NCBI GenBank assembly: GCA_944393575.1
Contig: CALYAP010000015.1
Span: 1-62,062, forward strand
Direction of reading: 5' to 3'
DNA length: 62,062 nucleotides
DNA from: an uncultured Clostridia bacterium
GTDB lineage: Bacteria; Bacillota; Dehalobacteriia; UBA4068
Position numbers and translations under genes: made by a program. The notes beneath the pieces are model-generated. The model saw only the letters and a list, made by a program, of their open reading frames with translations. It was not told where the DNA came from and did not search any database. Positions 6,386 to 47,676 of the stretch are shown one piece after another (the stretch's first letter is position 1; each line of letters begins with the position of its first letter).

Positions 6386-6943
6386 ATGAGGAAAAATTTT
6401 GGAACAAAGCCCTGGCTATATCCTTTGCCAGTATTGATCATCGGCACTTATAATGAAGATGGCAGTGCTGATGCAATGAATGCTGCCTGGGGCGGCTTGT
6501 ATAATGCAGATAAGGTGGTACTCTGCCTAAGTGCAGGCCATAAAACTACGGCTAATATTAAAGCAAGAAAGGCTTTTACGGTCAGCTTCGCCGATGCTGC
6601 ACATGTTATTTCTGCTGATTATGTCGGCATTATCTCTGCTAACAACGAGCCCCAAAAGATGGAAAAATCAGGTTTTCATGTAACCAAGAGCGAATTTGTA
6701 GACGCGCCACTGATCGATGAATTACCAGTAGCTTTGGAATGTCAATTTCTAAAAGTCAATGAGGATGGCAATATCATCGGACAAATCGTTAACGTAAGCG
6801 CTGATGAAAGTGTGCTTGATGCTGAGGGTAGCATTGATTTCACCAAATTCCGTCCCATCTCCTTTGAACCAGCTCATAACAGCTATCATGTGCTGGGAGA
6901 AAAGGTCGGCAACGCCTTCCAGGATGGCGGAAAACTGAAATAA
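6386..6943 (+). CDS. Flavin reductase-like (split-barrel FMN-binding) protein
   Basis: A 185-residue protein of the flavin reductase-like domain family, which binds FMN in a split beta-barrel. The N-terminus reads P-W-L-Y-P-L-P-V followed by N-A-A-W-G-G, typical of the group annotated as flavin reductase or flavoredoxin. The start at 6386 is preferred because AAGGAG lies just upstream; an in-frame ATG at 6356 would overlap the aldo/keto reductase. It may hand electrons to, or take them from, its reductase neighbours. This is inferred from context only. Confidence 0.8.
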   Translation: MRKNFGTKPWLYPLPVLIIGTYNEDGSADAMNAAWGGLYNADKVVLCLSAGHKTTANIKARKAFTVSFADAAHVISADYVGIISANNEPQKMEKSGFHVTKSEFVDAPLIDELPVALECQFLKVNEDGNIIGQIVNVSADESVLDAEGSIDFTKFRPISFEPAHNSYHVLGEKVGNAFQDGGKLK

Positions 6944-7385
6944 ACAAAGCAACAACCTCTCCAAAGGTTAGAAACTGTAAAGCTATATAATATAATAATA
7001 TAACTAAAAACTTTATAGCTATGCTTTCGTACTGTTATTTAGAATTGGGTTGTTCTCTTCCAAAACTGCTTCAAAATATAAAGCAGACATTGCCGCCAAT
7101 ACTTTTTTTAGATGTTTTGCTATTACAAAGTAAGTTATCAATATAGTAGCAGTCTTGATCTCTGATTAGGTAAGCTATGTGAGTGCCGCTGTATATGCAG
7201 TGGATGGAGCAATGGGAGCAGCATAAGCAGGGATACGCAAAACACCAGGAGCATTTATCAAAAGCTCCTGGTGTTTGTTTATACATTATCCGCAGCCTCT
7301 CCACAAAAAATTATTATACTTGATATGAGGATATTTTTTATTTATATCGGCATAATAACTTCAAAAAGAAGATGGAGACACTATC
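6944..7385. other. Intergenic stretch without a convincing gene
   Basis: This 442-bp stretch is AT-rich. The left part has runs of TATAATATAATAATATAAC. A hairpin lies at 7240-7276. A short open plus-strand stretch ending at about 7224 (V-S-A-A-V-Y-A-V-D-G-A-M-G-A-A then stop) has a coding look, but stops lie upstream in frame, so it is at best the tail of a decayed gene. A 77-codon minus-strand frame at 7071-7304 is cysteine-rich and without family resemblance; I treat it as chance. Confidence 0.5.
7240..7280 (+). terminator. Hairpin, probable terminator
   Basis: A perfect 13-bp stem (7240-7252 with 7264-7276) has an 11-base loop and is followed by GTTTAT. The T-tract is short. No intact gene immediately upstream explains it. 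Confidence 0.45.
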
Positions 7386-7592
7386 ATGGTCGATAAACGC
7401 AAAATAACTAGTGACACCGATTCATTTTTTGACAAGGAACAAAATGTAGCATCAATGACCGAATGTACTGGCCTCACTCAAGTACCTCCTTTTGATTTGG
7501 AAGAGGTAGAATCATTTACAGACATTTATGATATCCCGTTAGCGAGTAATAAAAAAGGTGCCAAAAACATTAATAGAAATCAGAATCAATAG
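7386..7592 (+). CDS. Small acidic protein of unknown function
   Basis: A 68-residue hydrophilic, acidic protein with no signal peptide or membrane segment. GGAG lies eight bases before the ATG, and a strong terminator directly follows the stop, so it looks like a true single-gene unit. The middle holds T-E-C-T-G-L-T-Q-V-P-P, an acidic patch and then Y-D-I-P. From memory this resembles a family of short Clostridia proteins sharing a C-T-G-L-[IT] motif followed by an acidic E-S-Y/F segment and a Y-x-I-P ending. The lone cysteine in that motif is its most notable residue. Function is unknown. Confidence 0.65.
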   Translation: MVDKRKITSDTDSFFDKEQNVASMTECTGLTQVPPFDLEEVESFTDIYDIPLASNKKGAKNINRNQNQ

Positions 7593-7600
7593 AAATAAAA

Positions 7601-27420: not shown

Positions 27421-28074
27421 CTACTTATGTGCTTCGATGGCCTTAGTCAACTTTTGTACGGCTTTTTTCTCGATACGACTCACGTAAGAGCGGGAAATAC
27501 CCAGCTGACGTGCTATTTCTCTTTGGGTCTTACGAGGAGTATTATCTAGCCCATATCTGAGGCGCAGCACAAAACTTTCTTTATCATCCAGAACATAAAG
27601 ATGGTCGCGCAACAGCTTCCTTTCTTCATCCAGCTCCACCTTTTCCTCTGCGCTCATCTCCCGGCTGCCCAGGATATCGATCAAGGTCACTTCATTGCCC
27701 TCTTTATCTACTCCTACAGGGTCATAGAGTGAAACCTCTGTTTTCTGGTTGCGAATAGAGCGTAAATACATCAAAATCTCATTTTCAATACAGCGGGCAG
27801 CATAGGTTGCCAGACGAGTATTGCGGTCTAAAGAAAAGGTATTAACTCCTTTGATAAGACCGATAATACCGATCGAAATTAGGTCGTCACGGTCAATACC
27901 ACTGGTTTCAAACTTTTTACAGATATGGGCGACCAGGCGTAAGTTGTGGATAATAAGTATCCTTTTTGCTTCTTCACTGCCAGTAGCCAAGGCTCTCAGA
28001 TTAGCAGCCTCTTCTTCTTCTGTGAGCAGCGGGGGAAAAACACTGTTATGAAGATAACCCAAAAAGAATCCCAT
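27421..28074 (-). CDS. sigK: Sporulation sigma factor SigK
   Basis: Late mother-cell sigma factor for coat and cortex genes. Region 2 reads L-I-I-H-N-L-R-L-V-A-H-I, then L-A-T-Y-A-A-R-C-I-E-N-E-I-L-M-Y-L-R. The SigK-specific V-S-L-Y-D-P-V-G-V-D-K-E-G-N-E follows. Region 4 has the helix-turn-helix Q-R-E-I-A-R-Q-L-G-I-S-R-S-Y-V-S-R. The N-terminal hydrophobic G-F-F-L-G-Y-L stretch is the pro-sequence that is cleaved on activation. The gene is intact, with no skin-type element. I prefer the ATG at 28074 (217 aa); a TTG at 28098 has no ribosome site. Its neighbour is a penicillin-binding protein. Confidence 0.92.
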   Translation of the reverse strand: MGFFLGYLHNSVFPPLLTEEEEAANLRALATGSEEAKRILIIHNLRLVAHICKKFETSGIDRDDLISIGIIGLIKGVNTFSLDRNTRLATYAARCIENEILMYLRSIRNQKTEVSLYDPVGVDKEGNEVTLIDILGSREMSAEEKVELDEERKLLRDHLYVLDDKESFVLRLRYGLDNTPRKTQREIARQLGISRSYVSRIEKKAVQKLTKAIEAHK

Positions 28075-28147
28075 ATGATGTACCACTCTTTTTGACAATA
28101 TTGGTATATCATATGCGGATTATTGTTTATGGTGCTTGTATCTGCGC

Positions 28148-47173: not shown

Positions 47174-47542
47174 ATGAATAAAGATATTTTAAATGGATTC
47201 TCTCTACATACACTTAAAGGCATTGCCATAGGGTTAGGTGCGGCAGTCATTGCAATACTGGTACTATCCTTTATCTCATCGATCATCATCTATAACACCA
47301 GCCTGATGGATAGCAGCTTATCGGCCTTTGCTATAGTCATCATAGCCATTGCAGCCTTTGGCGGCGGCTTTCTGGCAGCAAGACTTAATGGCAGCCGGGG
47401 ATTGATCACCGGGCTGATCTGCTCACTTTTTCTTTTTATTATCCTGCTGCTATTCAGGTCAAGCAATGGGGTATCTATCCCGATACAATTACTATGCTGC
47501 TGCCTGCCGGGCATGGCCGGAGGCTTTTTGGGTATAAAATGA
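47174..47542 (+). CDS. TIGR04086 family membrane protein
   Basis: A 122-residue protein with four hydrophobic helices and glycine-rich turns (F-G-G-G-F-L-A-A-R). It matches the small TIGR04086 family of Firmicutes membrane proteins with unknown function. AAGGAGGAAGCT precedes the ATG at 47174, which removes 31 codons from the longest frame. It converges on spoVM. Confidence 0.8.
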   Translation: MNKDILNGFSLHTLKGIAIGLGAAVIAILVLSFISSIIIYNTSLMDSSLSAFAIVIIAIAAFGGGFLAARLNGSRGLITGLICSLFLFIILLLFRSSNGVSIPIQLLCCCLPGMAGGFLGIK

Positions 47543-47563
47543 GGCGGTATTATTTACCGCCTC
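47541..47563 (-). terminator. spoVM terminator, overlapping its stop codon
   Basis: A perfect 9-bp GC-rich stem (47541-47549 with 47555-47563) with a 5-base loop. The 5' arm on the minus strand codes for the last residues (R-G-G-K) of the spoVM product and the stop lies in the loop and arm. It is followed by ATTTT. It could also serve the convergent TIGR04086 gene. Confidence 0.7.
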
Positions 47564-47618
47564 TGGGAGTGAAAAGAGCTTTGAGAAACTTGGGTAATCT
47601 GAAATAATAAATTTTCAT
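47550..47618 (-). CDS. spoVM: Stage V sporulation protein SpoVM (micro-ORF)
   Basis: A 22-residue open frame: M-K-I-Y-Y-F-R-L-P-K-F-L-K-A-L-F-T-P-R-G-G-K. The first 12 residues match the SpoVM pattern M-[KR]-F-Y-x-[IM]-K-L-P-K-F-L, the amphipathic helix that senses the convex forespore membrane and anchors SpoIVA. Length is within a few residues of the usual 26. GGAGGG lies six bases before the ATG. A CATACACTA box, the -10 of mother-cell sigma factors E and K, lies 30 bp before the start. The C-terminal part differs from Bacillus, ending in basic T-P-R-G-G-K. It stands next to dinG rather than near rpmB as in Bacillus. Confidence 0.88.
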   Translation of the reverse strand: MKIYYFRLPKFLKALFTPRGGK

Positions 47619-47647
47619 AAGCAACCCTCCGGAAGGAGCTTTTATCA

Positions 47648-47676
47648 TAGTGTATGCCAAAGAGATGATTTTGTTC
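47648..47676 (-). promoter_or_regulatory. Mother-cell (SigE/SigK-type) promoter of spoVM
   Basis: On the minus strand CATACACT (47656-47649) matches the SigE -10 consensus CATACAnT fully, and CATACACTA also fits SigK CATAnnnTA. GAACAAA (47676-47670) is a partial SigE -35 and contains AACA, compatible with SigK. It begins right after the dinG stop codon. Confidence 0.65.

Follow-up and report, generated by a model that had tools for sequence, protein, structure and literature searches.

Directly behind dinG, in a 62,062-nucleotide stretch of DNA from an uncultured Clostridia bacterium (assembly GCA_944393575.1, contig CALYAP010000015.1; the whole stretch is called the window below), lies an open reading frame (ORF) of only 22 codons. 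Does this ORF encode the sporulation peptide SpoVM and, if so, at which stage would the peptide be made, and how would its partner SpoIVA become available? The ORF occupies 47550..47618 on the minus strand, with an ATG start and a TAA stop after the 22 codons, and its product is MKIYYFRLPKFLKALFTPRGGK. The ribosome-binding site GGAGGG (47625..47630, minus strand) is separated from the ATG by 6 nt, and a purine-rich site is found at the equivalent position upstream of spoVM in relatives. A sequence-only reading had named the ORF spoVM and had pointed to this ribosome site and to a mother-cell promoter box; the ORF, the site, and the box are all present. Taking the genomic evidence together, we consider a combined reading probable: the ORF is spoVM, the peptide would be made late in the mother cell, and SpoIVA would be produced only after recombinational rejoining of its gene. 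New here are the predicted SigK-type promoter of spoVM and the split of spoIVA by a putative skin-like element.

The NCBIfam model SpoVM_broad (NF033436) matches residues 1–12 of the ORF (19.6 bits, E 6.6e-4), and this is the sole match to the model in the 1.67-Mb genome. A leave-genus-out profile, built solely from other genera and families, recovered the ORF with E=1.4e-6, versus 0.67 for the next best of the 2341 six-frame segments of the window. The Pfam model PF08183 is too strict for this class and gave no match in the genome. The identification as SpoVM, for which the sequence-only reading had proposed a family search, is borne out by the two matches, by similar micro-ORFs in related genomes, by the lack of a better spoVM in this genome, and by the presence of SpoIVA, which it had also proposed to look for and which is encoded as two gene halves. 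The ORF and its ortholog in the same-genus genome G002 differ at 8 codons synonymously and at 5 non-synonymously (dN 0.20 against dS ~2.5, calculated from just 22 codons and with dS saturated).

The position of the gene supports the same identification. A profile from eight aligned SpoVM-like ORFs matched most of the 35 genomes examined in the order, and nearly all of the top matches were located directly behind dinG. Because the profile holds no positional information, the dinG linkage is independent support. In 28 of the 35 genomes, a count that takes in G009 and G017, a SpoVM-like micro-ORF follows dinG directly on its 3' side. Three of the remaining seven yielded no dinG, and in two (G031 and G033) dinG reaches the contig end; G005 and G011 are the only two in which the end of dinG can be read and no spoVM was recognized behind it. 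In the rest of the class, spoVM directly follows dinG in G036 and G040 and lies slightly further downstream in G035, G037, G039, and G041. The location next to dinG had been noted as a departure from Bacillus, which it is, but the linkage is normal in this order and extends to two related families. A transferred or chance ORF, as the odd location might suggest, is ruled out by the order-wide synteny. On these grounds, namely the leave-genus-out profile, the dinG synteny, and the mostly synonymous codon change, we regard the orthology of the ORF with spoVM as settled.

The predicted peptide has the features of SpoVM: a length within about 21–29 residues, an M-(K/R)-x-(Y/F) start, and L-P at positions 8–9. 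Pro9 is the sole fully conserved residue of SpoVM (PMC5607322), and it is retained in every homolog listed. The start MK-x-Y-x-x-(K/R)-L-P-K-F-L is common to the window peptide and the SpoVM proteins of Bacillus subtilis (PDB 2MVH and 2MVJ) and Clostridioides difficile (PMC5607322), as are Pro9, Lys2, hydrophobic residues at 6 and 15, a basic tail, and the occurrence as a sole copy; SpoIVA and the sporulation sigma factors are also encoded in the same genome, as with known SpoVM. The window peptide differs in having 22 rather than 26 residues and a helix-breaking TPRGGK end. Its gene differs in lying behind dinG and not near rpmB, in a SigK-type rather than SigE promoter, in a stop codon placed within a terminator-like hairpin, and in a score under the NCBIfam cut-off. 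Residues 10–17 form an amphipathic stretch with a moment of 0.62 (0.78 in B. subtilis), which is broken by Pro18 and Gly20–21. Many relatives have a basic amphipathic tail of 12–13 residues (e.g., FLRNVLKKALKQ), and in much of this family the tail is shortened to approximately two turns by Gly or Pro.

When would this peptide be made? The -10 box CATACACTA of the predicted mother-cell promoter is at 47648..47656 and the -35 region GAACAA at 47671..47676, both on the minus strand. The AC of the -35 region (47674–47673) is 16 nt from CATA and sits just behind the dinG stop codon (47679–47677), and the pattern AC-N16-CATAnnnTA occupies the space between dinG and spoVM. In B. subtilis, SigK and SigE promoters differ by one base, C versus T, which is read by Arg versus Gln of the sigma factor (PMC517825). 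The sequence-only reading had left the box as SigE or SigK; the C of the -35 region narrows this prediction to the SigK type. The motif AC-N15-17-CATA was found upstream of 15 of 35 spoVM genes versus 2.4 in shuffles (maximum 7), and the SigE-type motif [TC]ATA-N15-17-CATA upstream of 3 of 35. Upstream of spoIVA in the same group, the SigE type was found in 19 of 25 cases versus 0.8 in shuffles (maximum 5), and the SigK type in 6 of 25 versus 2.75 (maximum 8). The genome encodes full-length SigH, SigF, SigE, SigG, and SigK; at the residue that discriminates the -35 base, its SigK has Arg and its SigE has Gln. The sigK gene (27421..28098, minus strand) is uninterrupted, and a box of the same class as that of spoVM, AC-N16-CATATGATA, precedes it at 28107..28133 on the minus strand, which suggests that sigK is autoregulated by SigK. 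Because the spoVM -35 is of the C type, that of spoIVA is mostly of the T type, the Arg/Gln pair is kept, and the sigK box is alike, spoVM of this organism is probably a SigK gene, unlike spoVM of B. subtilis and C. difficile, which is driven by SigE (PMC517825, PMC5607322).

The gene for the partner protein, spoIVA, is reported as a universal coat gene. In each of the three genomes of the genus (G000, the genome of the window, and G001 and G002) it is divided in two; almost all other relatives have it undivided. The pieces are at C40:2861-4114 (L040) and C34:6713-8807 (L041) in G000, at L044 and L045 in G001, and at L042 and L043 in G002. The break codon is identical in the three species (SAPSYH/IIRADI). 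The 3' piece lacks a conserved start codon and overlaps, in another frame, the end of a large serine recombinase gene with Resolvase, Recombinase, and Zn-ribbon domains; the tail of the 5' piece is unconserved. The element ends inside the break carry halves of an attP-like palindrome, e.g., ACTTCTGTTTGTT ... AACAAACAGAAGT. Its symmetry reaches 19–20 of 24 pairs per species, whereas 5000 random pairings gave 17 at the most. The arms in G001 have another sequence with the symmetry kept. When rejoined at the shared core, spoIVA regains its frame and gives 492 amino acids without defect, and the orientation of the halves is compatible with an excision that rejoins the gene. SpoIVA of G000 and G002 are 92% identical in the N-terminal half and 91% in the C-terminal half. 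An assembly break as the cause of the split is ruled out by the common junction codon and the palindromic arms in three species. With a split gene, a restored frame, an element-borne recombinase, and att symmetry, the spoIVA element is, as predicted from these features, of the skin/gin type.

In G000, approximately 14 kb of the element is covered, with a contig gap inside. Its sequenced ends carry adenylosuccinate-lyase-like, UvrD-helicase, amidohydrolase, permease, and LysR genes, and no phage genes were recognized in them. Among 398 genomes surveyed in the phylum, no other clear case of a split spoIVA came to light. Ten of the surveyed genomes had several or partial spoIVA matches, whose fragments resemble frameshifts, decay, or contig ends; two fragments overlapping by 40 residues in G283 are probably an assembly effect. 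Neither a relative of the spoIVA recombinase nor the attP pattern was found in viral contigs. A small ORF of ~55–60 codons overlaps the recombinase start (L041, L043, and L045), and a conserved TTCTAA-N16-CATAnnAT box precedes the small ORF and the recombinase in all three genomes. This small ORF is possibly a recombinase helper under mother-cell control.

Spore genes interrupted in sigK (skin), spsM (SPbeta), spoVFB (vfbin), gerE (gin), and yabG (yin) are known (PMC5595907, PMC10747680). The spoIVA element resembles these in its large serine recombinase gene, the short shared core at the junction, and an orientation compatible with frame-restoring excision. It differs in carrying metabolic genes and no recognized phage genes in the sequenced parts, for which gin is the closest in kind, and also in its inheritance throughout the genus (three genomes) and in the presence of further split spore genes in the same genome. 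The best NCBIfam matches of its recombinase are the cassette recombinases CcrC/CcrB and XisF, which have the same large serine architecture, but the scores are far under the curated thresholds (for CcrC, 135 bits where 900 are required), so it is not a member of these families. No published interruption of spoIVA or cotJC was found in the open-access literature, in which pdaB was not searched by name.

Four large serine recombinases were found in the genome, each abutting an incomplete spore-type gene: spoIVA, pdaB, cotJC, and a collagen-repeat gene. The 5' part of the gene for the PdaB-like deacetylase is at L165:4634-5170, with the recombinase downstream, and the 3' part is at L040:6325-6594 on contig C40; the junctions in G000 have inverted arms of 14 bp that match perfectly (GTACTTTTTTTCAG). 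In G002, the split falls at the same position (C87 and C38), and the copy in G001 is uninterrupted. In the case of cotJC in G000, the recombinase precedes a CotJC lacking its first residues (L164:4921-5376), which are encoded on contig C60 (L221:4787-4888), and the halves share a 15-bp core. G001 and G002 have an intact cotJC; the gene is broken at several sites in several other genomes of the order (L334, L341, and L342). Recombinase genes lie beside cotJC fragments in G023 and G029 and near a fragment in G020. Both halves are present on one contig, ~4.5 kb apart, in G022 (C10:40971-46257), G025 (C2:21519-26670), and G027 (C126:476-5427). The fourth recombinase precedes a collagen-repeat (BclA-like) fragment without a start codon (L163, ~6650-7600, contig C59 of G000), and its other half was not found in the nearly complete genome sequence examined. 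As part of a wider gating of coat formation, we lean toward the view that such elements have repeatedly targeted spore genes, cotJC above all, throughout the order.

Here, we propose how these components would act together. The mother cell would produce SpoVM during the SigK stage, with the gene read from a promoter of its own after dinG; orthology, synteny, and the promoter sequence are observed features. With functions carried over from the family, the peptide would insert into the outer forespore membrane via a short amphipathic segment with a kink at Pro9, and the N-terminal portion of the peptide would hold SpoIVA, the base of the spore coat. From the observed gene split, adjacent recombinase, site symmetry, and intact rejoined frame, we infer an excision, its cell type, and its timing: in the mother cell, which is doomed, dedicated serine recombinases would cut out the intervening elements, and the large-serine-recombinase element would leave spoIVA by recombination at the palindromic attP-like site. 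SpoIVA, and hence the coat foundation, would be available only after spoIVA is rejoined in the mother-cell DNA. This would make coat assembly subject to a programmed rearrangement of the DNA, in the way that sigK of Bacillus is controlled by skin. That the coat foundation is gated in this manner (by spoIVA, plus pdaB and cotJC in this species), with spoVM shifted late to match the SigK stage, seems to us somewhat better than an even proposition.

Alternatively, the spoVM promoter may be read early by SigE, as in B. subtilis and C. difficile, with the AC of the -35 region tolerated and the timing unshifted. The -10 element is common to SigE and SigK, and both factors can use some promoters (PMC517825); spoVM of C. 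difficile is SigE-dependent (PMC5607322). However, the same genomes show a T-type -35 at spoIVA and a C-type at spoVM, and the organism's own SigE and SigK retain the Gln/Arg discriminator, which makes the early reading possible but rather doubtful. It is scarcely credible that the ORF arose by chance or encodes a leader peptide. Its extreme shortness and a score under the curated family cut-off would favor such a reading, but the leave-genus-out profile recovers it, the micro-ORF keeps its place throughout the order with conserved promoter boxes, and a hairpin and a convergent gene lie downstream, with no same-strand gene to lead into.

As to spoIVA, a permanent fission, in which the halves are translated separately and assemble without DNA excision, would agree with the conservation of both halves in three species and with their location on separate contigs. 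This is unlikely in view of the 3' half without a conserved start codon and overlapping the recombinase gene in another frame, the unconserved tail of the 5' half, the attP-like palindrome halves at the junction with the adjoining recombinase, and the similar splits of pdaB and cotJC. The small genome (1.67 Mb) and the three broken spore genes may also be taken to mean that spoIVA, pdaB, and cotJC were inactivated for good in a genus losing sporulation, with spoVM as a relic. This, too, is improbable, as opposed by the five full-length sigma factors, the retention of the spoIVA halves and recombinase across three species, the mostly synonymous change in spoVM, and the rejoined spoIVA without defect. 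Some points weigh against the proposal as a whole. The spoIVA halves are on separate contigs in all three genomes, and the element is not closed, although the order and orientation are consistent; a clean AC-N15-17-CATA match is absent from 20 of the 35 spoVM upstream regions. The 19.6 bits of the ORF stay under the curated SpoVM_broad cut-off of 31 bits, which marks a limit for annotation and not a biological property, and under which almost every relative in the class likewise falls. Moreover, SpoVM of C. difficile is largely dispensable (PMC5607322), and by analogy the role of SpoVM in this organism may be minor.

The upstream neighbor of spoVM is a dinG-family exonuclease/helicase gene (TIGR01407; 47677..50490, minus strand), separated from it by a gap of 58 bp, and the convergent neighbor encodes a TIGR04086 family membrane protein (47174..47542, plus strand). 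Between the convergent genes, the hairpin GAGGCGGTA-AATAA-TACCGCCTC (47541..47563) can form on both strands, with a fold of approximately -17 kcal/mol on each. Its arms are at 47563–47555 and 47549–47541, the stop codon of spoVM is in the loop, and the R-G-G-K codons at the C-terminus make up the 5' arm. The hairpin, which probably terminates both genes, is preserved in the sister species G002. A comparable overlap of a hairpin with the spoVM end was observed in G012 (L097) and G018 (L085) of another genus. In the two genera, the C-terminus of the peptide seems to be dictated by the terminator sequence.

SpoVM is a model for membrane-curvature sensing by a tiny peptide. Galperin et al. (2012) left open whether diverged SpoVM genes hide undetected in clostridial genomes (PMC3533761). 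The dinG-linked set settles this question for one group and provides ~30 natural variants, some with a predicted helix of only two turns. If true, the interruption of spoIVA would put the first structural step of the coat, not only late regulators, under site-specific recombination.
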